Shown: piece by piece, positions 1-16,662 of the stretch
Position numbering within the stretch: the stretch's first letter is position 1
How the letters are laid out: each line of letters starts with the position of its first letter
Source of the DNA: Candidatus Methanoperedens sp. BLZ2
GTDB lineage: Archaea > Halobacteriota > Methanosarcinia > Methanosarcinales > Methanoperedenaceae
Assembly (NCBI RefSeq): GCF_002487355.1
Contig: NZ_NTMG01000054.1
Location: forward strand, 1-64,000
Direction: 5' to 3'
DNA length: 64,000 bases
The notes under the pieces: model-generated
Databases searched by the model: none
Told to the model about the DNA's origin: nothing
What the model saw: only the letters and a program-made list of their open reading frames with translations
Program-made: the position numbers and the translations under genes

Positions 1-134
1 CCCAAACGGAAGGGGTAGCTCTTGGCAATACATGATGTAACTTCTTGTCACGGGCGTTCTTTGCGCCCTTTGCGGTGAAAAGCGCAATACATTTATAATA
101 CTTTAAATATAATTTACATTCAGCTGACATGCTA
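1..134. other. Left edge without a recognisable gene
   Basis: No complete gene is seen. Short open stretches end at stop codons within the first 55 bases and could be the last codons of a gene left of the window, but they are too short to identify. A GC-rich inverted repeat (gggcg...cgccc, about 53-70) lies here and could be a terminator of that gene. An AT-rich stretch follows at 90-115 and leads into the first copy of the duplicated leader. Confidence 0.3.
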
Positions 135-800
135 CCGAAGCAACAAATGCGAATCAAAGACAGAGCAAGACCCCCATTTCGACAGGATGAACAGGATCGA
201 CCGGATCCGAAACCCAAATACATCTTCGCCATATATTTATAACAATTAGAATATTATTACCCCGGCGCACCCGTGTTCCCGCGGCAATCATCTTCATATT
301 ATGAGCATGGCCGGGGAAATATAAGAAAAACCTAAATACATGCTAAATGTAGAGGAAGATAACCTTAGAAGCTGCCTTTTGTGCATCAACCAGGTAATTG
401 TAGGACCCAGGGTCCAATGGTGGTAAAAAATGGTAAATTTCAGTAAATTGATCTCCACAGGCATTCCCGCATTGATCCTCCTGTATGTTTTTTACCTCAT
501 CGCATTTAACGCCCCTGTCATCTATACCATCGATATCGGCTCAGAAGGAGATGTGGACGCAGGCAAAGATGCCTACCTGCGTAATATGACGAGTCAGGCC
601 AGGTTAACCCAGAGCATGTCGATCGAAGGCGATACCTTCAGGAACATGACTGGATCGCCGATAAATTTTTACATTACGCCCGGGAACAGCATCACGGATG
701 AAGCAAAAATAATGACTGAGCTCAGGTTCATGGGGAGGACTTAAAAACCGATACCAGCGTGTGTATAAAAATATTGGAGGCCCCTACACATAAGTCTTCT
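135..800 (+). repeat. Direct repeat copy 1: leader and 5' end of a surface-protein gene
   Basis: This block matches 1681-2330 in the same orientation. The leader (about 228-429) and the first 75 or so codons are almost identical to copy 2, down to the shared stretch that runs through the start codon. Beyond about position 665 the match drops to a degenerate but still recognisable alignment that can be followed to about 800. The sharp change in similarity suggests gene conversion of the 5' part, or a patchwork origin, rather than one simple duplication. Confidence 0.8.
430..800 (+). pseudogene. Truncated copy of the surface-protein gene at 1960
   Basis: The reading frame opens at 430 with the same first residues as the intact gene at 1960 (MVNFSKLISTGIPALILLY) and keeps one N-terminal membrane segment. 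It stops at 744 after 104 codons, against 467 in the intact copy. DNA downstream of the stop still resembles the intact gene with frame-breaking changes, so this is a decayed 5' fragment and not a small gene in its own right. A short membrane-anchored peptide could still be made, because the leader and start region are intact. Confidence 0.75.
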
Positions 801-917
801 TGATATCCATGAACAAATTCAGAGATTCATTAAAGAGCAAGATATTTATAAAATATAGGATAAAAGAATTGAAGAGAATGAACAATATACCAACAATAAT
901 TTCTTGAAATGTGGATT

Positions 918-1208
918 ATGCGGATTAATGAAATCTTGTGGATTGAGAGGTTTGTAACCAAGATCCGAAAAAAGCATAATGTTACAAATGATGAAGTGGA
1001 AGAAGCTATGCATTCAAATGCACTCTTTCGCCGAGTAAAAAGGGGCAGTGTGGATGGGGAGGATGTTTATGTTGGATATGGGAGAACTGTTGCAGGTCGA
1101 TATCTTTTTATAGTTTTCGTATATAAATCATATAATACTGGACTGATAATATCCGCGAGAGAGATGACACTTAAAGAAAGGAAATACTACAATGCCAAGA
1201 AAGCCTGA
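918..1208 (+). CDS. BrnT-like toxin (DUF497 family)
   Basis: About 97 aa. The C-terminal half reads GRYLFIVFVYKS followed by an IISAREMTLKERKYY-type ending, the layout of BrnT/DUF497 toxins, which fold like RelE RNases and are neutralised by a BrnA partner encoded next to them. The N-terminal half, with a charged helix and a VTNDEVEEAM stretch, also fits. I prefer the ATG at 918 over 909 because MRINEILW begins the folded region; no clear ribosome binding site decides it. The gene overlaps the following antitoxin by 17 bases, as usual for such pairs. The module lies between a truncated and an intact copy of a surface-protein gene. Function is inferred from family resemblance. Confidence 0.7.
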   Translation: MRINEILWIERFVTKIRKKHNVTNDEVEEAMHSNALFRRVKRGSVDGEDVYVGYGRTVAGRYLFIVFVYKSYNTGLIISAREMTLKERKYYNAKKA

Positions 1209-1455
1209 GAAAATACCTGAAGAATTCAAAACATACGAGGAAGCCGCAGATTTCTGGGATACTCATGATAGCATGGACTACATAGATAACCTTGAAGAAA
1301 TTGAAATGGAAGTAAATATTCAAAAGAAACACTTTCTAATAGAAGTTGATATGAAAATTGCTGGAATACTTCAGGAAAGCGCCAGGAAAAAAGGGGTATC
1401 TGCAAGTTATTTGGCAAATGAACTCCTTCACAAACAACTTGCTGATGCAGTTTAA
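1192..1455 (+). CDS. BrnA/CopG-type antitoxin
   Basis: 87 aa. The N-terminal part (IPEEFKTYEEAADFWDTHDS) is the typical toxin-binding lead of CopG/BrnA antitoxins, with the FWDTHD motif. The C-terminal part (FLIEVDMKIAGILQESARKKGVS) is a ribbon-helix-helix DNA-binding segment. It should neutralise the toxin encoded just upstream and repress their common promoter. Its start overlaps the end of the toxin gene by 17 bases, so the two are translationally coupled. The toxin-first order matches brnT-brnA modules. Confidence 0.72.
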   Translation: MPRKPEKIPEEFKTYEEAADFWDTHDSMDYIDNLEEIEMEVNIQKKHFLIEVDMKIAGILQESARKKGVSASYLANELLHKQLADAV

Positions 1456-1959
1456 GAGCTCTCCATACGTTGTTAATTCCAATTATATATTGCGCCAGAG
1501 AATTATTAAATCCTAATCATTCAATTGCCGGAGCCAATGCTTCCCTCACACAAAAGAGCCTTAGCAATCCGAACCCGCATGTGAACGCAGATAAAAAAAC
1601 CCATTGCTGCGCAAATATATGTGCCCTCTCGCATAATTATTACTTATAAAATATTTATACCCTGGCGCAGACGCATACCCAAAGCAACAAACATGAGTCA
1701 AAGCCATGTCAAGAACCATATCGACAGGATCGACCAAATCCAAACCGAAAATACATCTTCGCCGCACATTTATAACAATTAGAATATTATTACCCCGGCG
1801 CACCCGTGTTCCCGCAGCAATCACCTTCATATCATGAGCATGGGGAATTATATAGAAAAAACCTAAATACATGCTAAATGTAGAGGAAGATAACCTTAGA
1901 AGCTGCCTTTTGTGCATCAACCAGGTAATTGTAGGACCCAGGTCCAATGGTGGTAAAAA
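1456..1959. other. Gene-free stretch with second leader copy
   Basis: No convincing gene on either strand. A 128-codon open frame on the minus strand (1561-1947) overlaps the repeated leader and has no family features, so I read it as chance. From about 1681 the stretch is the second copy of the duplicated leader upstream of the gene at 1960. The last 150 bases before the start are nearly identical in both copies, so they probably hold the promoter and translation start. Confidence 0.55.
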
Positions 1960-2330
1960 ATGGTAAATTTCAGTAAATTGATCTCCACAGGCATTCCCGC
2001 ATTGATCCTCCTGTATGTTTTTTACCTCATTGCATTTAAAGTCCCTGTCATCTATACCATCGATATCGGCTCCGAAGGAGATGTGGACGCAGGCAAAGAT
2101 GCCTACCTGCGTAATATGACGAGTCAGGGCAGGTTAACCCGGAGCATGTCGATTGAAGGCGATACCTTCAGGAACATGACCGGATCGCCGTTATATTTTT
2201 ATATTACGCCCGGGAACAGCATTTCGAACCATACAAATATCACCGTCGAGCTAAAGTTCAAGGGAGATTCAGATCTGGATATCGGCGTGTACCCGGATTA
2301 TGCATGGAAGCCCCTGCATATAAAAAATCT
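1681..2330 (+). repeat. Direct repeat copy 2: leader and 5' end of the intact surface-protein gene
   Basis: Partner of the block at 135-800. Both begin with an aagcaacaaa-type stretch, share the leader containing ttataacaattagaatatta, and continue through the start codon of the surface-protein gene. The brnT/brnA pair lies between the two copies. Confidence 0.8.
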
Positions 2331-3363
2331 TGAGAACTATACTCCTGTCAAGCAATTTGGTGATGTTGTTATTTATGCGAAGAATGACAGCGGGAATTAT
2401 ACAGATTATGATACTATAAATGAATGGATATCAGAGAATATACCCGGAGGTTCAACAATAGGATTGTATGATTATGAGATGGACTCTGAAATACTTATGA
2501 ACAGGTTTGTCACGGATGAAAATGCATATACGGAGATCAACCAGACATTTCGCGGGTCACTCTCTTTTTTAATAAACCTGAATGACAGCCTTAACCTAAC
2601 GCTGAGCAAGCAGGATATGAACTGGTATGACGGCAGCGATGAGTATTTGATCGAGCTTTACGATGCTGATGGCGGTCTAATCTTTAGCGATATCATACCC
2701 GATGACGGGATCATTGATAACTCCAGCAAAAGAAAGCCTCCGCAAATTCAAACGTTTTTCAGAGGTAGTATCAGAGAAGGGTCATACGAACTCAGGCTTG
2801 TTAATATTCAGGGAGAAAACAAAGCCGCAGATTCGACCATAACAAGCTTAGGAATAAATACAGACAAGATCATAACACAGGGGACTATTTTGCCTTTAAA
2901 CCCAGCTAAACTATTTTTCGATCTTAAACAAAATACAACATTGAAATTTAATGTATGGCAGGGTAAAGCAGTACAGAACATAAGCATCCATGGGGAAATG
3001 GATAAAGAAATTGTTATCAATAAGAGTCTCTTAGGAAAATGGGTGCCAGTTGAACTGCCTGAAGGTAGTTACAATATGGACATTAAAGGCAATCTCTATA
3101 TTTCAGGCGCTGACTTTGCTTTTATTCAAGAATCTCTTTTTCAGCCATATAAATATGAGATCAACAATGAGAACAACCAGTGGGTTATAATCTCAAATTA
3201 TCAGATTGAGAAGGATAGTTACGGCTGGACTTCAGCAAAGAAGAACTTCAAAGGCTCAGACCTCGAACTTTATAACGACAAAATGATCGTATTTGGCTTA
3301 ACGAACAAAACGAATAGCGAGGTGATGTTAAACGAATTTAAAGTTACCCTTACTCCCAGATAA
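1960..3363 (+). CDS. Membrane-anchored surface protein of unknown function
   Basis: 467 aa. Residues 9-27 form one hydrophobic segment (a signal anchor); the rest is hydrophilic, with many NxS/T sites, and is predicted to lie outside the cell. I recognise no catalytic domain. The sequence looks beta-rich, with a jelly-roll-like texture in the middle (LSFLINLNDSLNLTLSKQD) and paired exterior segments. It is followed within 26 bases by a GT39-type glycosyltransferase, which suggests a role in surface glycosylation or as its target. The start is fixed by a GGTGG upstream and by conservation of the start in the truncated copy at 430. Confidence 0.6.
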   Translation: MVNFSKLISTGIPALILLYVFYLIAFKVPVIYTIDIGSEGDVDAGKDAYLRNMTSQGRLTRSMSIEGDTFRNMTGSPLYFYITPGNSISNHTNITVELKFKGDSDLDIGVYPDYAWKPLHIKNLENYTPVKQFGDVVIYAKNDSGNYTDYDTINEWISENIPGGSTIGLYDYEMDSEILMNRFVTDENAYTEINQTFRGSLSFLINLNDSLNLTLSKQDMNWYDGSDEYLIELYDADGGLIFSDIIPDDGIIDNSSKRKPPQIQTFFRGSIREGSYELRLVNIQGENKAADSTITSLGINTDKIITQGTILPLNPAKLFFDLKQNTTLKFNVWQGKAVQNISIHGEMDKEIVINKSLLGKWVPVELPEGSYNMDIKGNLYISGADFAFIQESLFQPYKYEINNENNQWVIISNYQIEKDSYGWTSAKKNFKGSDLELYNDKMIVFGLTNKTNSEVMLNEFKVTLTPR

Positions 3364-3388
3364 AGATACACTTTCAAAGCTAATCTTT

Positions 3389-5305
3389 GTGATTTTAAGA
3401 AATCTGCTGGTCGTTTATGTTATACTGCTTCTATTTGACAATATATCCCCAGGAAATGTAGGGTTCTATTTTGATTTGAATAATTTTCTTTATCTTTTAA
3501 TCGGGCTGGGGGCTGTATATCTTCTCTTTTATTTAGAGAAACTTGAGAAATTTGACAAAATTAAGTTTGATATTGTCAATAAATACATCTCTTATGCATT
3601 TCTTGGATTGCTTATGATTCTGGTGGTGCAGTCAATATTACCACAAATTGTACCTGAATTGGCAAAGACACCCCTGATGGTTGCGGTTGTTGCAATGGGA
3701 GCGGTTACTTTCTATCTAGGCCGGGATAAGCTTGAAGCTATTGAAAAGGAGGCACAACAGGAAAAAAATGATGAGAAAAAACGAGAGATGGAGTTTAGGG
3801 AGGTGTATTCGGGAGTAAATCGAATATGGGGTGTGCGGTATGTTGCTAAGAAGATATATATAGAGGGATTTTACTTTTGGGGATTAATATCAATTTTCAT
3901 ATTATTAGTAATTCTTTATTTTTTAAATTTAAGTACAATAAAATATATCAATACAGATGAAGCGAGATTATTTTATGATGCTAAATTAATAATAGAAGGA
4001 AGTATTCCTTTCAAGGATTTTGATGCCAGATCTCCATTAATTATTTACTTTTTATCCATTTTTATTAAAATTTTCGGTGAATCTTTAGAAAGAATATATA
4101 TAATATCAATTTGTTTAGTTATTTTAACCACTTTTCTCCTTTATATTCTGGTAAAAAGGTTAACTAATAAGCAAATCGCTTTGATTACAATTTTTATTTT
4201 CGGAATCGCACCCATAAATATAATGATGCTTTATGTAAAAACACAAACTTTTCAGATTCCATTAATATTGTATTCAATACTATCGTATGATAATTATCTG
4301 ATAAAGAAAAATAACAAATATTTAATTTTATCCGGTTTATTTATGTTATTTGCTCTAGTGTGTCGAGAATCATCTTTGTTTTTTTTATCTGCATTTATGG
4401 TATTAATATTTATCAGAGAAAAAGAACAAAGAATAAGTAAACTTAAAGTCTTAATAATTTTTTCAGCTATTATTACCGTCATATTTTTTGTAATCTTTTC
4501 TTTGTTTTTTACAAATAAGGATGTACAAATGACAAGTTATTTAGCAAAAATTTCATTGAATATTGATATGGAAAATAATGCAAGAATCCTAAATGTCCCC
4601 TTTTATTTTTCTTATGGATATTTATTATTATTCTTTATTTCTTTTATAAACTTACCTCTAATTCTACCATACAGGAATAAACTCAAAGATAAAATCTATC
4701 CTATCTTATTACCATATATTGTTATTTTTTGTCTAATTCCATTTTATATATACCTATTGTTATATAATGGTTTTTGGGAACAATATTTAATGGAATTTGC
4801 CCCCTTTTATTCAATGATTATCGGTATAACTATCTATATATTAATAAGATCTATGAATACAAAAATTTTAAGAATTTTATGCTTTATCTTAATTTTTGCT
4901 CTAATAATACCTTATAATTTGGATTCATATATATTCATTAAAGGTGATACTGGTGCATATAATCTTGAAGGGGTAAAAGCAGTTTCAGCTTATATACATG
5001 AAACAACATTGGAAGGAGAATATATTTTTGGAGGTAACCCTATATATTCCTTTTTAGCAGATAGGCCGCATTTTATGAAGTTGTCTGCTATGTACTATGA
5101 ACCGGAAGATGTGATTAGGGTTTTTCAAAACATGGAAATAACTCCACCTGTAATTATAATTGAAGATTCTTATATAAGGAGATATTATTTAATAAATGAT
5201 GAGTTTAAAAAGTTCCTCGAATCAAAATATTCAATAGATAAAGAATTTTCATATGAAGCATATGGAAGAAAATGGAGTGCCAAAGTGTATAGATTTATAG
5301 AATGA
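3389..5305 (+). CDS. GT39/ArnT-like membrane glycosyltransferase
   Basis: 638 aa, many membrane segments. After an N-terminal part with three hydrophobic segments and a charged cytosolic linker (about residues 110-150), the second part starts a typical GT39/PMT fold: TDEARLFYD at about residue 188 carries the acidic pair that binds the lipid-linked sugar in this superfamily, followed by IPFKDFDARSPL. It probably transfers a sugar from a polyprenyl carrier to a protein or glycan at the outer face. It starts with GTG. Base composition changes inside the gene: up to about 3850 it resembles its upstream neighbour, after that it is extremely AT-rich like the next genes, so the gene may be a fusion or recombinant. 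Substrate unknown. Confidence 0.72.
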   Translation: MILRNLLVVYVILLLFDNISPGNVGFYFDLNNFLYLLIGLGAVYLLFYLEKLEKFDKIKFDIVNKYISYAFLGLLMILVVQSILPQIVPELAKTPLMVAVVAMGAVTFYLGRDKLEAIEKEAQQEKNDEKKREMEFREVYSGVNRIWGVRYVAKKIYIEGFYFWGLISIFILLVILYFLNLSTIKYINTDEARLFYDAKLIIEGSIPFKDFDARSPLIIYFLSIFIKIFGESLERIYIISICLVILTTFLLYILVKRLTNKQIALITIFIFGIAPINIMMLYVKTQTFQIPLILYSILSYDNYLIKKNNKYLILSGLFMLFALVCRESSLFFLSAFMVLIFIREKEQRISKLKVLIIFSAIITVIFFVIFSLFFTNKDVQMTSYLAKISLNIDMENNARILNVPFYFSYGYLLLFFISFINLPLILPYRNKLKDKIYPILLPYIVIFCLIPFYIYLLLYNGFWEQYLMEFAPFYSMIIGITIYILIRSMNTKILRILCFILIFALIIPYNLDSYIFIKGDTGAYNLEGVKAVSAYIHETTLEGEYIFGGNPIYSFLADRPHFMKLSAMYYEPEDVIRVFQNMEITPPVIIIEDSYIRRYYLINDEFKKFLESKYSIDKEFSYEAYGRKWSAKVYRFIE

Positions 5306-5352
5306 TTCTATTTCTATTATTTCATGGAAATTTATAATATCAATTTGAAATT

Positions 5353-6330
5353 ATGAAGCGAAAATTACTAGCGACTCTTATAGGTATTACGATCACAATT
5401 ATTTTAGTTAGCTTACTGCTATCACAAATTCAGATGGATGATATTGTTAGTACTCTGACAACCATTAACACTTTGTATATATTATTCGGTTTTATTTTGT
5501 ATATTATTATAAATTTTTTTAGAACTTTGAGATTTTATATATTGCTGGACCGAAAGATTGCGATAAGGAATTTATTTAATATCGTTTGTGTGCATAATAT
5601 GGTAAATAATATTCTACCAGCAAGAACCGGAGAATTATCATATATATATCTCTTGAAAAAGCATTACAATACAAAAATTGGTGATGGTATTGCAACATTA
5701 TTTGTTGCAAGAATTTTCGATTTTATTGCTATTTTCTTGATGTTTTTTATTGCTTTTATATTGACAAAAGATTTACCTATATTAGTCACAAAAGTTGTAT
5801 GGTATATTGTTTTTTTATTTATAATATGTATAGTTTTATTAGTAGGTTTATTATTTTTTGGCAAATCTGTTTTAAAATTGGCCATCATATTTAGTAATAA
5901 AATGGGATTGAAAGAAACACGAATAGTAAAGTATTTATTAGGTAAAGGAAGGGAAACTATGGAAAGTTTTGAGGAAATTAAATCAAAAAAGTTAATTTTT
6001 TCGCTTCTTCTGTGTTCAATCTTAATTATTGGTTTTAGCTATCTTTTAATTTATATCATACTTTATGGTATGAACATTTTTTTACCATTTCAAAAAGTTT
6101 TATTGGGATCTACTTTTTTATTATTGTCAACTGTTTTACCAATATATGGGATAGGAGGATTTGGAACAACTGAAGGATTCTGGGCATTAGTATTTGTACC
6201 TTTAGGTCTTACTCTAGAAACTGCAATAATATCTGGATTTAGTTATCATATTATCATTTTAATTTATTTATTGGTTACTGGAGGCTATGGTCTATTGATA
6301 ATCTATCTGAGCCACAAGCAAACATCGTAA
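5353..6330 (+). CDS. Flippase-like membrane protein (LPG synthase TM / UPF0104 family)
   Basis: 325 aa with about eight hydrophobic segments. The motif NNILPARTGELSY (about residues 83-95) and the late GGFGTTEGFW are hallmarks of the lysylphosphatidylglycerol synthase transmembrane / UPF0104 family, which in archaea often sits with lipid-linked glycan genes and is proposed to flip or modify polyprenyl-linked sugars. It lies 47 bases after the GT39 gene on the same strand and shares its AT-rich codon use, so the two are probably one operon. The exact substrate cannot be read from the sequence. Confidence 0.75.
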   Translation: MKRKLLATLIGITITIILVSLLLSQIQMDDIVSTLTTINTLYILFGFILYIIINFFRTLRFYILLDRKIAIRNLFNIVCVHNMVNNILPARTGELSYIYLLKKHYNTKIGDGIATLFVARIFDFIAIFLMFFIAFILTKDLPILVTKVVWYIVFLFIICIVLLVGLLFFGKSVLKLAIIFSNKMGLKETRIVKYLLGKGRETMESFEEIKSKKLIFSLLLCSILIIGFSYLLIYIILYGMNIFLPFQKVLLGSTFLLLSTVLPIYGIGGFGTTEGFWALVFVPLGLTLETAIISGFSYHIIILIYLLVTGGYGLLIIYLSHKQTS

Positions 6331-6433
6331 TTACAGCTTGAGACTCAAAAAAACCTAATCCAAAACTTAATCCTAAATGCCTAAAATGTTAACCGCGGAG
6401 TAGATTTCCTCAATTATGGCGGAATAATTTTCC

Positions 6434-8785
6434 CTACATATGTCTTTTTCTCCAGAGATAATATCCATACAGTGCACTAGAAATCGCTATTGTTAAGATA
6501 ACTCCATTTGACGGATTTGGTAACGATTTCTGATTACTTTCACTTGCATAGAATTGTATTTCAGAATAACCATCTGAATAGATGAAAGTAATAGCACCTG
6601 TTGAATTGCTAGGGAAGTTTCCATATGTGGCCCCATTTTTTAGAACAATCACATTTGTATGTATTGGGAAGTCGCCAATTGTATGCTGTGTGGTTACACT
6701 GTGATTTGATGATGATTCATTCCAAACTTTGCGATAATCTCCCGTAGTGTTCCATATGGATACAGTAATATTAACTGAATCAGATGATGGAATCAATGAT
6801 ATATTTATAGCCTGATTTATTGATGGTCGTTGAGAATTTCTATTCCAAGTTACGACACCAGCGGAATCAATTGAATAACTACCTACTTTTGATATTTTTG
6901 GATAAGGATAGGTTAATCTTTTGAGTGGAAACATTATAGATACTTGACCTGAACTGTCCGCTGGATTTGGTACAATGAAAGAAGTCACGTTTGTGGTTCC
7001 TATAAAAACTGAGGTAGTGATAGGTACATTAAATGTAATCCCTTCTAAATCATCTACAGTAGGCGTAAAGTTTCGTATAGTGCTATTTACCGAATTTATT
7101 GTTATCTTACTTCCATCATAAGTATAATTTAAAAATGTTGAAACCTCAGCATATCTCAATAATTTGCCTGTAGTCGTAACATAAATACTTTTATTCTTTC
7201 CATTTGTTCCTTTATTGTAGTCAGCCAATGTATGGAGCTGTGTAGTTGTGTTAGAATCAAAAATAGTTCTAAATGTGTTTGTTGAAGTGTTGCCAGAACT
7301 ACCGAAATGTGATGGTATGATAGAATATAAATTATGTTGAATTAAATTATTTAAAATTAAATCAGTAATTTGTTTCGATAGGTTTCTATTATATGCTGAA
7401 TTTGGGTATGGGTCTATACATTGTTTACCTTTAGAACAACGGCCTTGATTCCTCCAAAATCCATAAATTAAACTTGAATCGTTTAGAGTTGCAAAATATA
7501 AGGGATTTGATATACCTGGATAGAATTTATATGAGACCACAGGTGAATTCTCCCAAAAATATACTAAATTCGGAAGCGATGTTTTTGTTCTATTCCAATG
7601 ATAATGGGCACTATTTTCAGGATTATCCCCCACAAAGTTATTATTATAAATTCCTATATTTTGAGGAACTTCTGAATGGTCGACCCAATAAGTAATTGGA
7701 TGGCTACTTTGATTTAGAACTGAAATGGCATCCAAATACCAAGATAAATTTGTAGCCATATCCACATTATTTGGGGACATTGTATGTGGGGCATCAAAAT
7801 ATCCCATATTTAAATAATCTAAAAATATATTTGATTTATCACACAATAAGGTTGTTTCAAGTGTATTATCAGAATAATAACACAATGTATCAATAGCTCC
7901 TGAAGCTGAACCTCCATTCATCCAAAAGTTTTGTGATACTTCTAAATCTACTCCACTATCAGTACCATTTACAGAATGATTTGTATTAAGATAATCAAGC
8001 GCATCATAGGTTTCATTCGTATCCATGCTGTCAATATCACTTGAAATGGACATTGCTGAAACATATGGGTATGGGAATTTTCGGGTTGTTTCTGGTAGAT
8101 TTGGTAGCGAATCATCATAAAATGAAATATTATCTAAGAATAATGAACAATTTGAATACGCACGAGTACCAACTGAAACATGATTTAATTCGGTAACATT
8201 ATTTATATAAATCCCAGAATTTAAATATATTCCATCTAAATACGTATCCATTGTAAAATTTACTGAATTAAAGACCGTAGTTAAATTATGCCAATTATTC
8301 AAAGTATAATATCCTAAAAGAATATATGTTGTAGAATTTCTATATTTTAACATATTATAAGTCGAATTATATCTAGTTGAATAATAATAATATCCCATAA
8401 CGGAACCAATCGAATTTTGGAAATAATCCCAATCAGGATTAGTTGAACTGTTTATATTTGTGAGATTAAACCATATAGTAGTAGAACCTTTCACTATATT
8501 TTTTGTAGGATATATTTTTGCAGATGCAAACCCTGTTGAATAATTAAAATCATCTAATCTTAAACTTTTATTTCCGTTATTTGATGTTGTGTTTGATACA
8601 GTTATATCCACCCTAAGTGAAGATGAATTTATTAAACTTAAATATCCTGTTAAAGAATCGATTGGTGTATACGTTCCTACTGTATCGTTTTCAAATGAAT
8701 AGGATATATCTTCAATTGCTGACGCAAAAGGTAGCATCAAAAATAATACAATAAGTCCGACTTGTATTATATTTACTTGTTTCAT
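6434..8785 (-). CDS. Large surface protein, possibly a divergent polysaccharide deacetylase
   Basis: 783 aa. A signal peptide (residues 1-23, ending ...FASA) is followed by a LamG-like lectin region (about 25-225), then a middle region beginning YPYVSAMSISSDIDSMDT that resembles the start of NodB-type deacetylase barrels, with later His-containing segments (YFDAPHTMSP, YWVDHSEVP). The C-terminus has a beta-rich domain, a hydrophobic segment and a basic tail (YYLWRKRHM), so it is anchored in the membrane and exposed outside. NxS/T sites are very frequent. The catalytic call is tentative because the canonical metal triad is not obvious. It is convergent with the flippase gene and strongly AT-rich. 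Confidence 0.5.
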   Translation of the reverse strand: MKQVNIIQVGLIVLFLMLPFASAIEDISYSFENDTVGTYTPIDSLTGYLSLINSSSLRVDITVSNTTSNNGNKSLRLDDFNYSTGFASAKIYPTKNIVKGSTTIWFNLTNINSSTNPDWDYFQNSIGSVMGYYYYSTRYNSTYNMLKYRNSTTYILLGYYTLNNWHNLTTVFNSVNFTMDTYLDGIYLNSGIYINNVTELNHVSVGTRAYSNCSLFLDNISFYDDSLPNLPETTRKFPYPYVSAMSISSDIDSMDTNETYDALDYLNTNHSVNGTDSGVDLEVSQNFWMNGGSASGAIDTLCYYSDNTLETTLLCDKSNIFLDYLNMGYFDAPHTMSPNNVDMATNLSWYLDAISVLNQSSHPITYWVDHSEVPQNIGIYNNNFVGDNPENSAHYHWNRTKTSLPNLVYFWENSPVVSYKFYPGISNPLYFATLNDSSLIYGFWRNQGRCSKGKQCIDPYPNSAYNRNLSKQITDLILNNLIQHNLYSIIPSHFGSSGNTSTNTFRTIFDSNTTTQLHTLADYNKGTNGKNKSIYVTTTGKLLRYAEVSTFLNYTYDGSKITINSVNSTIRNFTPTVDDLEGITFNVPITTSVFIGTTNVTSFIVPNPADSSGQVSIMFPLKRLTYPYPKISKVGSYSIDSAGVVTWNRNSQRPSINQAINISLIPSSDSVNITVSIWNTTGDYRKVWNESSSNHSVTTQHTIGDFPIHTNVIVLKNGATYGNFPSNSTGAITFIYSDGYSEIQFYASESNQKSLPNPSNGVILTIAISSALYGYYLWRKRHM

Positions 8786-8882
8786 ATTATATCAACTCAT
8801 AATCAAATTATTTATTTTATATTTACATAATCAATCTTTTGGGAAAACCGTAGACAGAGCTTATTTTAGATGAATTCACACA

Positions 8883-9590
8883 TTACTTTTTTGCTTCTAC
8901 CCAAAAATTTGAATTTAAATATACAGGCATTTTATTTAATAAATATAAAATTATTACTAAGAGCTTTCCAAAATACTTAATTTTCTTAACCTTGTTTATT
9001 TTGTATTCTGTCAAAATATGACGCTTTCTGATGGAAATGTCAACAAATCCATTATCTTTTAAAATGTTTCTTAAATCCCAATATGTTTGTAGTGAACAAT
9101 GATATATTTGCCATTTAGTCAAACTTTTTGTTATTAAGATTGTCCATGGGATATTGATAATTTTATTTGGAGTTTGAAAAAGATACATTCCATTGGGTTT
9201 TAACACTCTATTTACTTCTTTAAGATGATTATTAACATTTGGTATATGTTCTAAAACATCAAAAGATATGACAATGTCAAATTCGTTATCATTAAATGGA
9301 AGTTTATCCCCATTATAAATAAATAATTTATTTTTCAAATTTTTGTATTCATTCATCCCATAAGACACAGCAGCGGACGTGATATCAACACCAATGATTT
9401 TTGAATAACCAGACTTTGATAATAAGTTCAATAAACTTCCAATATTGCATCCAACTTCTAGAATATTTGAATTTTTTGGGAGTTTATTCTCCATTAAGAA
9501 ATTATAACTGTCACTTATATCCCCATACTCTTTACGATATTCTATATTCTCTAAAAAAATTTTGTCGTATATTGAATTTGCAATCATCAA
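8883..9590 (-). CDS. Class I SAM-dependent methyltransferase
   Basis: 235 aa. Motif I is ILEVGCNIGSLLNLL (about residues 43-57), followed by the acidic end of strand 2 (IGVDIT), then FDIVISFDVLEHIP and RVLKPNGMYLFQTPNK, the usual layout of Methyltransf_11/23 enzymes. Such genes in glycan clusters methylate sugars or lipid-linked intermediates; the acceptor here is unknown. It lies 17 bases downstream of another methyltransferase gene on the same strand and shares its low GC content, which suggests co-transcription and common ancestry in a transferred glycan island. Confidence 0.75.
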   Translation of the reverse strand: MMIANSIYDKIFLENIEYRKEYGDISDSYNFLMENKLPKNSNILEVGCNIGSLLNLLSKSGYSKIIGVDITSAAVSYGMNEYKNLKNKLFIYNGDKLPFNDNEFDIVISFDVLEHIPNVNNHLKEVNRVLKPNGMYLFQTPNKIINIPWTILITKSLTKWQIYHCSLQTYWDLRNILKDNGFVDISIRKRHILTEYKINKVKKIKYFGKLLVIILYLLNKMPVYLNSNFWVEAKK

Positions 9591-9607
9591 AATTTCCTAG
9601 CATTATA

Positions 9608-10354
9608 TTAAATTTTCATATTATTTTTTTTGAAGCCCACAGCTATAATTGACTTAGTAAAAATCTTCGTCTTTCTGCCGTACATTAAAAAAATTATTCT
9701 GAAAGTTAAGTTCATAAATTTTGAAAAATATTTTGCTATATAATTCAAAGGATTAGTGTAGAAGATATAAATGTCTTGGGGATATACTTTGACGTCTTCA
9801 AAACTACATACTTTTAAAATTTGAGATAAGCTTTCTTCTGTAAAGCTAATTTCATGAGTGAAATCTATATATCTTCCACTATTAGCTAAAAATGGATTTG
9901 AAGAATTTAACGTTTTTACAATTACTTTTCCATTATCACATAAATTATTATTGATAAGGTTCAATATTTGAACTATCTCATTTTTATCAAAATGTTCAAT
10001 AATATCATTCATTACAATCACATCAAATGGTTCAATATTTTTCTCTAAGAAATCAAATGCATCAATATATTCAACATGAAATCCTTTGTTCTTACAAAAT
10101 TCAATATTTTCATTACTGATATCTATTCCTAAATTATTTTTATAACCCTCTTTTTCAAGAAAGTAAAGAAAATGTCCCATACCAGACCCGATATCTAAAA
10201 TTTTTAGTTTTTTATCTTCATTCAAGTGTTTTGAGTAATTAATCTTGAAATATTTATGGTAGGTTTTAAATTCATTATACTCATTTTCATGCGCTGCCTG
10301 AAAATGGGTTGTTAGGTATTTTTCATAAATTTGTTTTTTTTCAATAATTTTCAT
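9608..10354 (-). CDS. Class I SAM-dependent methyltransferase
   Basis: 248 aa. It shows a SAM-binding motif I (LKILDIGSGMGHFLYFL), acidic motif II (LGIDIS), and FDVIVMNDIIEHFD as the motif IV region. The C-terminal part includes FTHEISFTEESL, typical of methyltransferases from O-antigen and other glycan clusters. It is probably a sugar or lipid-carrier methyltransferase acting with the neighbouring glycosyltransferases. It lies 63 bases downstream of the GT4 gene and 17 bases upstream of the second methyltransferase on the same strand, so the three look like an operon. Confidence 0.75.
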   Translation of the reverse strand: MKIIEKKQIYEKYLTTHFQAAHENEYNEFKTYHKYFKINYSKHLNEDKKLKILDIGSGMGHFLYFLEKEGYKNNLGIDISNENIEFCKNKGFHVEYIDAFDFLEKNIEPFDVIVMNDIIEHFDKNEIVQILNLINNNLCDNGKVIVKTLNSSNPFLANSGRYIDFTHEISFTEESLSQILKVCSFEDVKVYPQDIYIFYTNPLNYIAKYFSKFMNLTFRIIFLMYGRKTKIFTKSIIAVGFKKNNMKI

Positions 10355-10417
10355 AAGATCAACTCTTTGTCAATAAAGCAAATAGCAGCTATGATAACAG
10401 ACATGTACACTTCATTG

Positions 10418-11560
10418 TTAAATTTTATTAATTTTTATGTTTTCTTTTTCTTCGATTTCACTTTTGTAAATATTCTCGTATTGTTTTGCAACTTTTTTCC
10501 AATTAAATTTCTCTTCCAATCTTTGTCGAGCTTTATTACCAAATTCATTGAAAAGTCTATCATTACTTATGAGTTTATTTAACGCATTTCTAATGTTTTC
10601 CGAACTGTTAGGTCTTACAACTAATGCACTATCCCCAACAACTTCCGGGCATCCACAAACATCTGTTGTAATAATCGCACAGCCAGCCGCCATAGCCTCT
10701 AATAGCACAGTCGGAAAGTTTTCAGCAGTGGATGGAAATACAAAAATCGAAGATGTCTCATACAATTTTTTTAGCTCTACGGATTTATTATCTAACCAAC
10801 CAATAAAATTTACCTTTACTTTAAGATCTTTTGCTTTTTGCACCAATGCCTCTTTATACGGTCCCTCCCCCACTATATTTATCTCATAATCGATATCCAT
10901 ATCCTCAATTGCATCCAAAAAATACTGGAAGCCCTTGAATTCGAATAATCGGCTTACTAATAATATCTTCTTCTCTTTTTTCTTTGGATCAAAATTGAAT
11001 GATCCGATATCAAATCCATTAGGAATAACTGTTACATTATCAGTATCGACGTTTTTCAAGATCATATCTTTTAGATATTTCGATGGTGTTACTACACACT
11101 CAGCATTTTGAACTATCTTTCGCCAGAATGGTTTAAGTAGTTCGTGCTGTATTGAAAACCTGTTGGGATTATGACCCGGGACATCACTCCCATGACTTGT
11201 AATAATATATGGAATTTTACTTTTATTCAAATAAGAAACAACACCAGTTGGAATAATAAAATGAGTATGGCAAATATTGTATTTATTTTCCTTCAATAAT
11301 TTCGGTAGAAAACGATATGCAGAATAGCAATATGAAAGCATCTCATGCGTTTGGCATACACTCTGCTCCTTTCTGATACTTGGAACTCTATAAACTGTTA
11401 CTCCATTAGTCTCTTCTTTCTGCTTCAGTCCCTTAAAGCCCATGGTAACGACATCTACAGTATGACCCAAATTAACAAGCTCTTCAGACAACGATTTTGT
11501 TACTGGAGACGCGCCTCCCCCCAGCGGCGGGTACTCATAATTCAGCATCAGTATTCTCAT
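10418..11560 (-). CDS. GT4 family glycosyltransferase (intact)
   Basis: 380 aa, two Rossmann domains. The N-terminus MRILMLNYEYPPLGGG gives the acceptor-side glycine loop; HGSDVPGHNP and VIPNGFD mark the domain interface; the EX7E element ENFPTVLLE (about residue 280) binds the donor sugar nucleotide. It should transfer a sugar from a nucleotide donor to a lipid-linked or surface glycan in the cytosol. The first 49 bases are GC-rich and identical to those of two truncated genes upstream (11512-11560), while the rest of the gene is AT-rich and belongs to a different GT4 paralogue, so the 5' tip looks transplanted. Substrate unknown. Confidence 0.85.
   Translation of the reverse strand: MRILMLNYEYPPLGGGASPVTKSLSEELVNLGHTVDVVTMGFKGLKQKEETNGVTVYRVPSIRKEQSVCQTHEMLSYCYSAYRFLPKLLKENKYNICHTHFIIPTGVVSYLNKSKIPYIITSHGSDVPGHNPNRFSIQHELLKPFWRKIVQNAECVVTPSKYLKDMILKNVDTDNVTVIPNGFDIGSFNFDPKKKEKKILLVSRLFEFKGFQYFLDAIEDMDIDYEINIVGEGPYKEALVQKAKDLKVKVNFIGWLDNKSVELKKLYETSSIFVFPSTAENFPTVLLEAMAAGCAIITTDVCGCPEVVGDSALVVRPNSSENIRNALNKLISNDRLFNEFGNKARQRLEEKFNWKKVAKQYENIYKSEIEEKENIKINKI
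11512..11560 (-). repeat. GT4 5' tag, copy A (49 bp)
   Basis: Identical over 49 bases to copy D (15651-15699), with unrelated sequence on both sides. It covers the start codon and first 16 codons of the intact GT4 gene. Confidence 0.85.
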
Positions 11561-11591
11561 GTTCTCTCAAAGTAATTCCATGCTTTTTATC

Positions 11592-11903
11592 TCAAGCACG
11601 CCCTTTTTGAGACTTCGCCGTTTCTTCGGCGGTCTTAATTCCCCTCGTGAACCGATCATAACTAATACTTGCTTTAACATGGTATTTTTCCAGGAGTTCA
11701 TTTACTTCATACATATCCAGGTCAAGCAGCTCTGCCAGTTTATCCTTGCTTGTTTTGCCGTTTGAATATTGATTAATAAGATATAATTCAGCACCTTCTC
11801 GGATCATCTGTTTTAATACAGATAGGGTATCAATATGCTCTTCCCGTGAACGCTGATGCAAAACTGCATCAATATTTTTGGGTAAATCAATCGTAACACT
11901 CAT
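11592..11903 (-). CDS. UPF0175-like antitoxin of a PIN TA pair
   Basis: 103 aa. An N-terminal ribbon-like strand (SVTIDLPKNIDAVLHQRS) is followed by helices with an HTH texture (KDKLAELLDLDMYEVNELLEKY), the layout of UPF0175/HTH antitoxins that accompany PIN nucleases. The start overlaps the stop of the PIN gene upstream by four bases (ATGA), so they are translationally coupled. It should block the PIN nuclease and bind the promoter. It resembles the gene at 16233-16550 in fold but not closely in sequence. Confidence 0.65.
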   Translation of the reverse strand: MSVTIDLPKNIDAVLHQRSREEHIDTLSVLKQMIREGAELYLINQYSNGKTSKDKLAELLDLDMYEVNELLEKYHVKASISYDRFTRGIKTAEETAKSQKGRA

Positions 11904-12391
11904 TTTAATTCCTCGATTTTACTTTTTATAAAGAACATGTGCTCTTCCTTTATCATAGGTTTTAACAATTCTAAATACTTTAAACCTTTCTCCTTGTTAA
12001 ACAATCCATTCATAACACACATTAAAATTATACCGGCTACAGGCGTAAAAGGTATCTCATAAATATCCAGCATCCTGAGGAACGCTTCATCATCTGAGAC
12101 AATTAAATCCATATCGTTCGCCAGATAATAATCCAGCACACTTTTTTCTCCCGCGCCCAGCCTAAAATTTTCAACTGAAGATTTTCCTATAACCTCTGAT
12201 ACTGTAATTTTACCTTCATGGACAAGTTTTTCCATTCTTTTTGCATCTGGAAGATTCCTTTTCAGACCTGCAGTCACCTGTTCTTTATACACCTGCTCAG
12301 TTAAGATTACATCAAATCCAGAAGCAACTATCTCCATGACATTAATTTTTGTCAACTTAATAGATGCATCGGTATCCAACAATATCCTCAT
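11900..12391 (-). CDS. PIN-domain RNase toxin
   Basis: 163 aa. It begins MRILLDTDASIKLTK, the first PIN acidic motif; ENFRLGAGEKSVLDYY contributes the second acidic position, and IVSDDEAFLRMLD the C-terminal aspartates. These are the metal-binding carboxylates of PIN-type RNases, so it is a probable toxin paired with the UPF0175-like protein downstream. The start overlaps the stop of a duplicated GT2 3' end by four bases, exactly where another copy of that GT2 gene is followed by a GT4 start. The module thus occupies the position of a glycosyltransferase. Confidence 0.75.
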   Translation of the reverse strand: MRILLDTDASIKLTKINVMEIVASGFDVILTEQVYKEQVTAGLKRNLPDAKRMEKLVHEGKITVSEVIGKSSVENFRLGAGEKSVLDYYLANDMDLIVSDDEAFLRMLDIYEIPFTPVAGIILMCVMNGLFNKEKGLKYLELLKPMIKEEHMFFIKSKIEELK

Positions 12392-12825
12392 TCCACCACC
12401 CTCTCTATCAAATAATTCTTCCTCTGGTTCTGCCCATAATAAACCTTGAGCATAATATCAGCAAGTATCCCTGAAACAACAAACTGCACCCCGATTATCA
12501 CCATCAATACAGCCAGTAAAAATAATGGCCTATCCGAAAGACTTTTCCCAAAAAACAGCCTCTCCATGCCCATAAACCCTCCCAGCATTGCACCTGAGAT
12601 GCCCAGCAGCAGCCCCAATCCCCCGAACACATGGATCGGTCTTGCTGAGAACTTCTGCCAGAAGCTGATAACGATGAGGTCAAAGAAGCCTTTTGCTAGT
12701 CTTTGCAACCCATACTTAGAAACATATTCTTTATTTCTTATGGAGCCTTTATCAATAAAGTAATCTACACCCAGCGGCGGGTACTCATAGTTCAGCATCA
12801 GTATTCTCTTATGCGTCATTTTCAT
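12388..12825 (-). pseudogene. Chimera: GT4 tip + regulator scrap + GT2 C-terminus
   Basis: An open 145-codon frame made of three pieces. Residues 7-19 (RILMLNYEYPPLG) are the GT4 5' tag; residues 20-37 (VDYFIDKGSIRNKEYVSK) match a segment near the C-terminus of the AlbA-type regulator encoded at 14012-15415; from residue 38 to the end it matches the last 105 or so residues of the GT2 at 16659-17594, including both membrane helices and the LIERVVE ending. It has no glycosyltransferase active site. It could yield a two-helix membrane protein but is best read as recombination debris that keeps an open frame. Its start overlaps the preceding chimera's stop. Confidence 0.8.
12770..12808 (-). repeat. 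GT4 5' tag, copy B (39 bp)
   Basis: It matches 39 bases of copy A with one mismatch (position 12790). The original start codon is missing; the tag is read from an upstream ATG inside the chimera at 12388-12825. Confidence 0.8.
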
Positions 12826-13367
12826 TCGTTCTGCTGGATTTCCCAGCGCCCTCCTTTACTTGGTCCCTTCCATGAAATAATGCCTTCCTTTGTCAATTTC
12901 CTGATATGATACTTGACACCGTCTAACTTGATATTCAACTGCCCCGCAATTTCTTCCTTTGTCATAACCGGATTTTCCCTGATAAGAAGCAAAATCTCAT
13001 CCCTGGTTTTGGGGGTAGTTTTGGGGGTAATGCCCTCCTCTGTTCTGTAAAATACAACTAAAAATCCCGTCTTGAGGTCTTTGAATTCAACCTTCATGTT
13101 ACCGGCCTTACACTCTTCACAAATCCTTTTCAGCCCGGAGCCCCATCGTTCGATCTCTTTTGATTTATATAATATTTCAGCGATCAAAGGATTTCTAAGG
13201 ACTGACTGCTCATCGCCCGTAATGAAATCCTCAGGCGTGAGTCCTTCTGGAAATGTTCCAGGATTCCATATTTCCACACGGTTCAGGTTTTTTAATGTAT
13301 TGCTTAATTGTTCATAGAGCGGTTCAATGTTATCTTCTTCGTTGTAAAAAGGGACGATGACTGACAT
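12822..13367 (-). pseudogene. Chimera: GT2 N-terminus fused to AlbA-type regulator C-terminus
   Basis: About 181 aa. The first 30 residues (MSVIVPFYNEEDNIEPLYEQ...LNR) match the start of the GT2 at 17594. From VEIWNPGTFPEGLTPEDF onward it is the C-terminal part of an ATP-binding AlbA/Schlafen-type regulator, ending with a winged-helix segment (MTKEEIAGQLNIKLDGVKYHIRKL). At the junction both parents have an Asn-Arg pair, a hint of micro-homology joining. It lacks the GT2 active site and the regulator's AlbA and most of its ATP-binding region. The winged helix could still fold. I chose the ATG at 13367 over the GTG at 13370 because it overlaps the upstream stop in a TGATG. Confidence 0.8.
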
Positions 13368-13426
13368 CACTGAAAATTACTCCTGTGCTTTTGCAGGAGC
13401 CATAGACTGAATTTTATGTTTTTCAT
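13367..13426 (-). pseudogene. 19-codon stub of a secreted-peptide-like start
   Basis: An AAGGTGGTATC ribosome binding region and ATG, very like those of the 58-aa secreted peptide gene at 18714, open a 19-codon frame (MKNIKFSLWLLQK...) whose stop overlaps the GT2-derived start in a TGATG. Near its end a hairpin (13380-13399) is present. It is probably the remnant of a second copy of the small secreted gene that heads the intact operon. Confidence 0.45.
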
Positions 13427-13562
13427 CTTAGATACCACCTTGATCCAATTCATGCAATATTTGCCTGGAAATGCAGGAATCTTAATGGTATGTTACTATT
13501 TAATAACATCTATGGTATATCATTGAAAATATTAAAATAATTATGCTTATAATGATAGAAAA
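13427..13562. other. Gene-free AT-rich spacer
   Basis: No coding potential seen on either strand. It probably carries the promoter for the chimera operon to its left: AT-rich runs occur around 13500-13560. Confidence 0.35.
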
Positions 13563-13943
13563 TTAATGGCATAATATGGAACATGTGATCTTATATTCAA
13601 GCCCGCCATCGGCGGCGCATCCCCGGGGTAAGGGGTCGTAACCCCGGCGCAGTAAAGATGAAATTGAGTGCTTTAAAAAATTTTTAATAAAGCTGTGCGC
13701 CTTCAGCCTGTATGTTATGATTTCCCGCTGGGTCCAGTAGTGGATGTCCTTTTTATTGATTGGAAGTTTGTAAATGCTGATAGTACTGCCCATCTTTTCT
13801 GTCTCAAAGGTATTCGCTGGAGAAGATGTAACAAGATCAACTTCAAGATTCTTCTTCGCAAATTCCTTCAATATATATTTGCAGGCATTGCTCCCGCCTC
13901 CCCCCAGTGGCGGGTACTCATAATTCAGCATCAGTATTCTCAC
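13563..13943 (-). pseudogene. Truncated GT4 gene (copy C)
   Basis: A GTG start opens the sequence MRILMLNYEYPPLGGGGSNA, and about 86 codons match the first part of a GT4 enzyme. After ...AHSFIKN the frame runs into unrelated GC-rich sequence with inverted repeats (about 13604-13655) and stops. The acceptor loop is present but the donor-binding domain is missing, so it cannot be an active transferase. It is almost the same as the fragment at 15406-15699; both diverge at the same codon. Confidence 0.85.
13681..13943 (-). repeat. 263-bp direct repeat, copy C
   Basis: It matches 15437-15699 over the full 263 bases without gaps; by eye I count about 14 mismatches. Same orientation. The AlbA-type regulator gene lies between the two copies. 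The last 49 bases are the GT4 tag (13895-13943, two differences from copy A, one of which changes ATG to GTG). Confidence 0.85.
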
Positions 13944-14011
13944 GAGTTCCTCCGATTAATCTTGCCAGAGCTTGTCCTTTGCTTGAGTTCCTTATGAGAG
14001 ATCAAAAAGTA

Positions 14012-15415
14012 TCAACTTCCATTTTGCGTATTTTTTTGCGTAATTTTTGCGTAATCTGGCAAGACATAGAGTATGTTTCGCTTTCCATCGCCCACTCTGG
14101 TCAATAATCCTTTCATGACCAGTTGTTTCAGGTCAGTCGTAGCAGTCTTACGTGAAATAATGTTTAGAGAAACATATTCTTTATTGCTGATAGAGCCTTT
14201 CTCAATAATGTAATTCATTGCTTGTATTTGTCTTTCATTAAGCCCCATTTTTTCAAGTTCCTCTGGATTATGAGGCAATCTAAAAGTAACCACAAACGCT
14301 CCTGAAATATGTTCAAACAAAGGTTCAGGGATCCCCCATTCTCTGCATTGGTTAATCATATCCAGAGTTCCTCCACCTACATCCTCCACATATTTTACCC
14401 ATAACAATTGTTTGAATAAGAGAGGATTACGTGGTACAGATATGTGTTCTCTCCTGAGGTCTTCTATAGTGATTTCATCCGGAAGTTTTCCAGGATTCCA
14501 AACTTCTAATCTATTATCGAATATCCTGACCTGTACCTTGGATGGCGATTCATAATCCCTGTGTGCAATAGCATTAACAACAGCTTCCCTTATCGCATCG
14601 GATGGGTACTGATATTTTTCTTCTCTTTGAACCTTCCCGGGCACCAATCGTATTGATTTTCCGATATTACGCAACACAAAGTCCATTGCTCTATCGATCA
14701 AATCAAACACAGTCCCTTCGATTGTCTGGAAATCAATATACGGCTTAACAGGTTCATTTCCAGAAAACCTTATGCATTTCACTTCTGATTGTAAAAAAAA
14801 TGATTCCTTATAAAATAGCAAAAGTGCGGCGTTTGTCAATTCCCCATTTTTCAATAATTTCAATTTCATTAAAGATTCTTTGATCGGAGAATCAACTGGA
14901 AGATTTAATCCTCTCTGTTTTCTGGATTCTTCTAAAAACCATCTCAGTTTTTCTCTATCGATGAAATCCAGATTTCCTTCTTCACTTATTCTTTCATCCC
15001 AGTAATTTTTTGCGCCACTTTCTTTCGCCAATTTTCTTATTTCACTCGATGAAATTCTTAAGTTTGTAGTTCCAACTCTTTTATAAGCATGGTTTTTGAA
15101 AAAGACTGGCTTTTCTGGATTTTCTTTTATTTCGACCTTAATAATATCTCTTTCATCAATATCGATTGTATTTATACAAGGGAATATCTGTGGATCAGTA
15201 TTCCTTTTTATGTAATTCGCTAATTCTTCTAATGAGTTATTTCCGATGTCAACTCCGAGAATTTTTCGATTGTCTGAAACTCCAATAATGACAAACCCAT
15301 CATTTGAATTCGAGAATGCTGAAATGGTTTCTCCGATTTCGTTTAATAATCCTAATGATTCTTTGAACTCAAGACACTGTGATTCACCACCATCAATGAG
15401 TTTTTTTAAGAGCAT
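14012..15415 (-). CDS. AlbA/Schlafen-type ATP-binding transcriptional regulator
   Basis: 467 aa. Residues 1-125 form an AlbA_2 (Schlafen-like) domain: ECLEFKESLG, ISAFSNSNDGFVIIGVSD. The middle (about 255-400) is a GHKL-like ATP-binding domain of the HATPase_c_4 type: YPSDAIREAVVNAIAHRDYE, RLEVWNPGKLPDEI, and VGGGTLDMINQCREWGIPEP. The C-terminus is a winged helix (ISNKEYVSLNIISRKTATTDLKQL). Such proteins are usually regulators found near mobile or defence loci. The gene overlaps the end of a truncated GT4 fragment and sits exactly between two 263-bp direct repeats. Part of its C-terminus is also copied into the chimeras at 12388-13367. Confidence 0.8.
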   Translation of the reverse strand: MLLKKLIDGGESQCLEFKESLGLLNEIGETISAFSNSNDGFVIIGVSDNRKILGVDIGNNSLEELANYIKRNTDPQIFPCINTIDIDERDIIKVEIKENPEKPVFFKNHAYKRVGTTNLRISSSEIRKLAKESGAKNYWDERISEEGNLDFIDREKLRWFLEESRKQRGLNLPVDSPIKESLMKLKLLKNGELTNAALLLFYKESFFLQSEVKCIRFSGNEPVKPYIDFQTIEGTVFDLIDRAMDFVLRNIGKSIRLVPGKVQREEKYQYPSDAIREAVVNAIAHRDYESPSKVQVRIFDNRLEVWNPGKLPDEITIEDLRREHISVPRNPLLFKQLLWVKYVEDVGGGTLDMINQCREWGIPEPLFEHISGAFVVTFRLPHNPEELEKMGLNERQIQAMNYIIEKGSISNKEYVSLNIISRKTATTDLKQLVMKGLLTRVGDGKRNILYVLPDYAKITQKNTQNGS

Positions 15416-15699
15416 GATCCTCTGAATTTTGTTATGTTTTTAATAAAGCTGTGCGCCTTCAGGCTGTATGTTATGATTTCCCGCTGGGTCCAGTAATGGA
15501 TGTCCTTTTTATTAACTGGAAGTTTGTAAATGCTGATAGTACTGCCCATCTTTTCGGTCTCAAAGGTGTTCACTGATGAGGATGTAACAAGATCAACTTC
15601 AAGGTTCTTCTTCGCAAATTCCTTCAATATATATTTGCAGGCATTACTCCCGCCTCCCCCCAGCGGCGGGTACTCATAATTCAGCATCAGTATTCTCAT
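15406..15699 (-). pseudogene. Truncated GT4 gene (copy D)
   Basis: ATG start, then about 85 codons of a GT4 N-terminal domain (MRILMLNYEYPPLGGGGSNA, later DIHYWTQREIITY), ending in a short unrelated tail and a stop inside the start of the AlbA-type regulator. It lacks the donor-binding half. It is the sister of the fragment at 13563-13943; the first 49 bases also match the intact GT4 at 11560 although the rest belongs to another GT4 paralogue. Confidence 0.85.
15437..15699 (-). repeat. 263-bp direct repeat, copy D
   Basis: Partner of 13681-13943; ungapped and about 95% identical by eye. It contains the GT4 tag at 15651-15699, identical over 49 bases to copy A. Confidence 0.85.
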
Positions 15700-15757
15700 C
15701 TAAATCCTCTGGTGCATGGGCATTTCACAAATCCATATCTTAAATATATCAATGAGA

Positions 15758-16249
15758 TCATAGCAACCGTTTCCTCATATCGTCACTGAATTCGTAATAG
15801 TCTTTAATTTTCAAATCTTGTATGATGCACGAAATCTCATAAGTATTCAGAAATGCTGCACTTTTACACGCAAGCAAAAAAGCTGGTATGTTGATTGCCA
15901 TTACACCTTGTTTTCTGGCTATATCGAGTGCCTTTTTATCGCTTGTCAACAACAATGATTTTCTATAGTTTTTACAAAGAGCAATACATTCTTTTTCCCC
16001 ATTGCCCAAATTATCAAAATCCATGTCCAAATTCGCAATGCTTTTTTCGTCAACTGTCTCTATTTGCAGATATTTCACTTCAAACACATGTTTTACAAGT
16101 TTCGTTCTTGCGATTTCATTGAAAACTGCAACTGGAATAAATAATTTTTCCACTTTGAAAAAATTCTTTATTAAAGCCAATTTGCCTATTTTTAAAAAAG
16201 AGCTGAGGAAGTCAGCATCTATAATGACAACGCTATTTTCTTCCTGCAA
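15758..16249 (-). CDS. PIN-domain RNase toxin (DUF3368-like)
   Basis: 163 aa. Acidic motifs fit a PIN nuclease: VVIIDADFLSSFLKIGKL at the N-terminus, GNGEKECIALC in the middle and LLTSDKKALDIARKQG near the C-terminus, the DUF3368-like order. It overlaps the upstream antitoxin-like gene by 17 bases. It is a probable toxin acting on RNA in the cytosol. It lies between the GT4 tag copies E and D, mirroring the TA pair at 11592-12391 between tags B and A. Confidence 0.7.
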   Translation of the reverse strand: MQEENSVVIIDADFLSSFLKIGKLALIKNFFKVEKLFIPVAVFNEIARTKLVKHVFEVKYLQIETVDEKSIANLDMDFDNLGNGEKECIALCKNYRKSLLLTSDKKALDIARKQGVMAINIPAFLLACKSAAFLNTYEISCIIQDLKIKDYYEFSDDMRKRLL

Positions 16250-16550: not shown

Positions 16551-16584
16551 TTAAATCACTTCAATCAAACTAGATGTTTTCATA

Positions 16585-16662
16585 TTAATAAGATATCATC
16601 ATAGCAATAAATATATCTCGTAAATTATAGATGTACTCATAATTCAGCATCAGAATTCTCAT
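16585..16662 (-). pseudogene. 10-codon GT4 stub after the intact GT2 gene
   Basis: ATGA overlap with the GT2 stop, then MRILMLNYEY followed by 15 unrelated codons and a stop. It contains tag copy E. The overlap shows that a GT4 gene originally followed this GT2 gene in the operon; it has been cut after ten codons and replaced by the PIN TA pair. Confidence 0.75.
16633..16662 (-). repeat. GT4 5' tag, copy E (30 bp)
   Basis: Matches the last 30 bases of copy A with one mismatch (16654). Confidence 0.78.

Follow-up and report, generated by a model that had tools for sequence, protein, structure and literature searches.

Restriction-modification systems insert with long, variable target duplications on the order of 100 nt, according to two articles (PMC3874152 and PMC3031569) that cite Nobusato et al. 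(2000) and Furuta et al. (2010). In chromosomal integrons, toxin-antitoxin (TA) pairs are thought to stabilize the array, as reviewed in PMC2654758, and integrons of archaea are treated in PMC9668308. How TA pairs that carry no transposase enter chromosomes and persist there is an old question, and the literature searched, mostly without subscription papers, yielded no description of a duplication scar for them. For restriction-modification systems, that literature does describe such a scar.

The window analyzed here is a 64,000-nt stretch of “Candidatus Methanoperedens” sp. BLZ2 (NZ_NTMG01000054.1) that starts at the left end of contig C50 (C50:1) of G000, a 3.7-Mb, 85-contig archaeal assembly. 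Close to that end, a leader and the start of a gene occur twice, on either side of a TA pair, with the following features:

135-692, plus strand: copy 1, comprising a leader (135-429) and the first 88 codons (430-692); 94% identity over 191-692 to 1724-2222
430-828, plus strand: truncated pseudogene, codons 1-133 with two in-frame TAA (tblastn, 71% identity)
878-1458, plus strand: TA unit common to other loci, 582 nt, 85-87% identical to G021:C46 and G013:C129
909-1208, plus strand: BrnT-family toxin gene, 99 aa (PF04365, 7e-10, 39.5 bits against a cut-off of 34.5; aligned with relatives)
1192-1455, plus strand: antitoxin gene, 87 aa (PF12441 CopG_antitoxin, 4e-12, 47.1 bits against a cut-off of 28)
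1679-2222, plus strand: copy 2, comprising a leader (1679-1959) and the 5' end of the intact gene (self-comparison)
1960-3363, plus strand: intact gene, 467 aa (467-codon ORF from the ORF list; no Pfam family)
3389-5305, plus strand: PMT_2-family membrane glycosyltransferase gene (family search), which adjoins the 467-aa gene in G012 and G021 as well

The core of the duplication, found by self-comparison, pairs 191-692 with 1724-2222 (505 nt, 94.1% identity, E = 0), and gapped extension widens it to 135-692 and 1679-2222 (558 nt, 90%). A preliminary description, made from the letters alone, had placed the two copies at 135-800 and 1681-2330; the duplication is real and well above chance expectation, but at the DNA level it ends at 692 rather than 800. 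Similarity drops sharply after codon 88, and at the protein level copy 1 can be traced to 828. That description was right that the first copy is cut and decayed, that the second is complete, and that an intact TA pair (909-1455) lies between them. It had called the pair BrnT/BrnA-type, which is correct for the toxin. The antitoxin gene lies directly 3' of the toxin gene with a 17-nt overlap, the layout of brnTA type II operons; unlike in those modules, the antitoxin matches CopG_antitoxin, and no BrnA family was listed for it up to E = 1 in the Pfam search. Only positions 878-1458 are common to the window and the BrnTA loci of relatives, and the moving unit is therefore ∼580 nt long; no transposase ORF is found among its ORFs.

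The 467-aa protein has one predicted N-terminal helix, a probable membrane anchor, followed mostly by strands, in a structure model of low confidence (pLDDT 48). A scan of the genome contigs with this protein gave no match, nor did an Rfam search of window positions 1-20000. A third 5' fragment of the gene was observed in the same assembly on G000:C61 (L004), a contig of 6.2 kb (∼1410-1198, minus strand; 86% over 175 nt), where it adjoins a PIN toxin pair (393-1081, plus strand). With C61 attached to the left end of the window, the genes would stand in the order found in G012 and G021. No overlap was seen between C61 and C50, however, so that this join, like a second insertion at the same gene marked by the C61 fragment, is a guess.

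Orthologues of the 467-aa gene are single and intact in G012 and G021 and have no TA pair there (relatives of the protein are 50-63% identical). They adjoin the same PMT_2 gene and are divergent from another PMT gene. The nearest BrnTA pairs (BrnT 80-84% identical) occur in G021 and G013 beside another gene, and they themselves sit between duplicated ends of that neighbor. Comparison with relatives had been proposed in the preliminary description as a test of its reading and did not refute it, and neither do the TA pairs of G021 and G013, which occur away from the window gene's duplication but within that of another gene. No relative was found to hold the window locus in the same surroundings, and none therefore provides an exact empty site for this insertion.

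A second case within the window, at 10.4-17.6 kb, has the same architecture of gene-end duplications around TA pairs, as had been noted earlier. On the minus strand, the order is a glycosyltransferase gene (GT2), a TA pair, the start of a second glycosyltransferase gene (GT4), a Schlafen-like gene, the GT4 start again, the 3' end of GT2, a TA pair, and the intact GT4. Its parts are as follows:

10418-11560, minus strand: intact GT4 gene
11592-12391, minus strand: PIN-like toxin (11900-12391, assigned by eye) and weak UPF0175-like antitoxin (11592-11903), immediately 5' to the intact GT4
12384-12702, minus strand: duplicated GT2 3' end, 91% identical to 16655-16973
13681-13942, minus strand: fragment with the GT4 start (48 nt, 98%); the entire fragment is 95% identical to 15437-15698
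15437-15699, minus strand: fragment with the GT4 start (49 nt, 100%; self-comparison)
15758-16550, minus strand: UPF0175 antitoxin (16233-16550) and PIN-like toxin (15758-16249, assigned by eye), between the intact GT2 and the GT4 fragment
16659-17594, minus strand: intact GT2 gene

The two PIN-like toxins, when compared, showed no mutual similarity.

In the window, elsewhere in G000, and in several congeners, TA pairs were found with an intact gene (or some other local sequence) on one side and a duplicated part of it on the other. The bracketed TA families are BrnT, PIN, HEPN-MNT, TumE, ParE, DUF5615, and PemK. Recurrent loci include those listed below, at which PolD, Top6A, and the TA families of the survey were assigned by family search and several of the other gene names by eye from the translation:

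G021:C46 (L082): hydrolase-like gene, BrnTA between a truncated and an intact copy
G021:C46 (L082), further out: the same hydrolase-like gene, HEPN/MNT pair between two truncated copies
G022:C17 (L085): wecB-like gene, two BrnTA pairs alternating with 5' pieces
L117: deacetylase-like gene, VapBC in front of the gene
L100: DNA polymerase D large subunit gene (PolD), PIN pair behind the gene
L101: topoisomerase VI subunit A gene (Top6A), TumE pair behind the gene
L178: CobB-like gene, TumE pair in front of the gene
L139: Cas6-like gene, nucleotidyltransferase in front of the gene

Could whole genes have been duplicated in tandem first, a TA pair landing later in or beside one copy, which then lost its 3' part? 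The related third fragment on C61 indicates that the window gene's family had several copies. We nonetheless consider this order of events improbable, because the same series would be needed at a large number of unrelated genes, among them PolD and Top6A, of which relatives have a single copy, and because most loci have only a short end piece of about 59-320 nt as the outer copy. Still less probable is an assembly artifact in which a contig combines the gene ends of two strain variants, one on each side of a TA pair. Most of the genomes are metagenome bins, and the window begins at a contig end; against this, the same kind of structure appears in separate assemblies, including “Candidatus Methanoperedens nitroreducens” ANME-2d (brackets in L153, L165, and L168), and the join of TA pair, repeat, and downstream gene at PolD is common to G000 and G005.

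Several further arrangements were observed in these stretches. In L165 (9500-18300, “Candidatus Methanoperedens nitroreducens” ANME-2d), an array of PIN, DUF5615, AbiEii, HEPN/MNT, and PIN pairs has 57-77-nt repeats (88-97% identity) between its members. L162 (1-2379) holds tandem partial copies with the motif LGxIWQKGA, each with different following ORFs, that resemble the orphan C-terminal toxin/immunity cassettes of polymorphic toxins, and the PolD gene of L100 (8776-13641) contains an intein. No local repeat was seen around the BrnTA pairs of L084, L088, and L216. Some brackets of PIN pairs are uninformative, namely, that of L096, formed by two related antitoxin genes, and those of L078, L079, L095, and the PIN gene of L101, whose repeats look intergenic.

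Enrichment of TA modules beside partial duplications, suggested at the outset as a further check, was found in two samples. Among 54 PIN/HEPN genes from fetched stretches, 10 were bracketed by direct repeats (some of them trivial repeats) compared with 26 of 648 offset control intervals (Fisher 2e-4); the remaining 44 were not bracketed. The second sample was a TA-blind survey of 58 stretches (1.16 Mb) picked regardless of TA positions, in which brackets were defined as direct repeats of at least 55 nt and at least 78% identity, 300-2600 nt apart, with copies not both in long ORFs. It returned 19 brackets at 11 loci, and a Pfam-confirmed TA gene lay inside 10 of them (six loci). In 57 length-matched control intervals, no TA family was seen among the best 25 of 43 families (33 of 35 ORFs tallied); 18 families rank below these, so a missed TA family is possible. 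Brackets differ from controls (Fisher 1e-7), with the caveat that brackets within one locus are not independent.

Repeat lengths range from about 57 to 560 nt, and almost all of the repeats occur solely at their own locus. A ∼190-nt repeat was observed between TA pairs in G004:C36, G000:C5, and G021:C51 (L080, L078, and L081), mostly in one orientation per array. Its 77-nt middle part is the start of the duplicated window leader (135-211), and copies of a ∼30-nt core (ACAGGATNNACAGGAT-like) are scattered across the genus. We rejected this dispersed repeat as the sole cause of the duplications, since the duplicated window segment is far longer than ∼77 nt and the repeats at most other brackets are particular to them.

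A comparison with an empty site is available for PolD. In G000:C5, the PolD body is followed by its 232-nt end, a TA unit (752 nt), a second 232-nt end, and the downstream gene; G013:C83 is the exact empty site, with a contiguous PolD body, one 232-nt end, and the downstream gene but no TA unit. Similarly, the 3' end of Top6A is double in G000 and single in nine relatives. The PIN pair found at PolD also occurs elsewhere in G007, between different, 176-nt repeats. As a separate observation, a PolD-type PIN pair in G001:C3 (L200, 1433-2373) has short remains of the PolD 3' end on its flanks although PolD itself lies on another contig, as if the PIN unit had moved together with its flanks.

The preliminary description had hinted that one shared mechanism brings TA modules in at the 5' ends of surface or glycan genes and leaves a working copy. 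Recurrence, the PolD empty site, and the enrichment over controls support a shared mechanism of entry at gene ends that leaves a working copy, but the proposed scope was too narrow: the 3' ends of PolD, Top6A, and GT2 are duplicated as well, and the genes affected include PolD, Top6A, and the CobB-like gene.

The differences between copies bear on where the second copy came from. Over ten loci, 86 of 136 differences fall at third codon positions, including 12 of 16 in PolD, 20 of 27 in GT2, 14 of 22 in the hydrolase-like gene, and 6 of 11 in the window gene, where the bias is not significant. Between-species orthologue controls (PolD and Top6A) have 75-90% at third positions, and neutral decay of one copy would give ∼47%, a rough assumed figure from which the total departs (p = 8e-5). 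Because the differences are mostly at third positions, the second copy at several loci probably came from a related strain together with the TA pair. In four loci (PolD, Top6A, GT4, and the hydrolase-like gene), homology ends within a few nucleotides of a start or stop codon. Such limits are expected for copies that derive from different species, between which intergenic DNA has ceased to align. Judged from sequence, the bias and the limits of homology fit copies that would once have been working genes of different lineages, joined by recombination in the gene end, and this import route is likely in some loci. Counting against insertion with homologous import, most of the PIN/HEPN genes and some BrnTA pairs lack brackets, and we identified no donor molecule or crossover junction; copy-to-orthologue distances, measured over 232 and 116 nt, did not have the resolution to single out a donor.

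The same end product could arise within one genome by a staggered break or template switch that inserts the TA pair and copies a long stretch of the target end, after which the outer copy decays. Such an event has been reported for restriction-modification systems with variable target duplications of ∼100 nt (PMC3874152 and PMC3031569), and in the window the leader is duplicated along with the coding part while copy 1 carries stops. The third-position bias, set against that rough expectation for one-copy decay, argues against local duplication for PolD, GT2, and the hydrolase-like gene, as does the frequent end of homology near start or stop codons, and we regard it as a rather unlikely general explanation. 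At the window locus itself, with its weak bias and duplicated leader, local duplication is equally possible.

We return to insertion of the TA pair by recombination that leaves two copies of a gene end, usually via homologous import, with the pair kept by addiction; this is the account that we think is probably correct. A TA unit of ∼0.6 kb, consisting of toxin and antitoxin alone with no transposase, would enter where a working gene starts, through a recombination event that leaves a truncated gene-end copy beyond the TA pair and the other copy in the working gene. Donor DNA from a related strain or species may carry the TA pair together with the end of the neighboring gene, and it could recombine with the resident gene through a single crossover within this end, the way plasmids integrate (alternatively, through two joints, one homologous and the other illegitimate). 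The gene would stay intact, with a direct repeat on each side of the TA pair, and loop-out of the insert between these repeats would ordinarily be expected. The TA pair would resist loss because a cell losing it also loses the antitoxin, making addiction the putative reason for retention, and this resistance would explain why TA pairs are frequent cargo between such repeats. With repeated rounds, TA pairs and gene-end fragments could accumulate into arrays. A broader version, which we consider possible rather than probable, is that TA pairs spread in the genus as minimal elements: the end of the neighboring gene would serve as a homology arm, host recombination would integrate the element and restore the gene, and loss by recombination between the repeats would be lethal. 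Essential genes, such as PolD and Top6A, would be safe landing sites.

The pattern suggests a route by which selfish TA genes can enter a genome and leave it unbroken. Should this mode prove general, the scars would let genome scans date and trace single TA insertions, unknown TA families could be found as cargo between duplicated gene ends, and whether addiction guards repeat-flanked DNA from deletion becomes testable.

Among known systems, the nearest precedent is the insertion of restriction-modification systems with long target duplication. In those reports, the inserts are also addictive units without a transposase, lying next to or between host genes with a variable target duplication, as inferred from genome comparison. 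The TA inserts are likewise flanked by long direct copies of the target, with a single-copy empty site for PolD (G013:C83) and support from single 3' ends in relatives for Top6A; for the window gene, single-copy orthologues occur only in another context. In contrast to that precedent, the cargo here consists of TA pairs in archaea, the repeats have the lengths given above and often include a gene end, arrays recur, and the copies often resemble xenologues rather than fresh local duplicates. Chromosomal integrons also carry arrays of TA pairs with repeats between them, whereas the repeats described here are almost all locus-specific and often pieces of the neighboring gene, rather than a common, attC-type recombination site. 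Plasmid (Campbell) integration by single crossover similarly places an insert between direct copies, with one gene truncated and one intact, but here no plasmid backbone is left, and the insert consists of a TA pair and short flanks.
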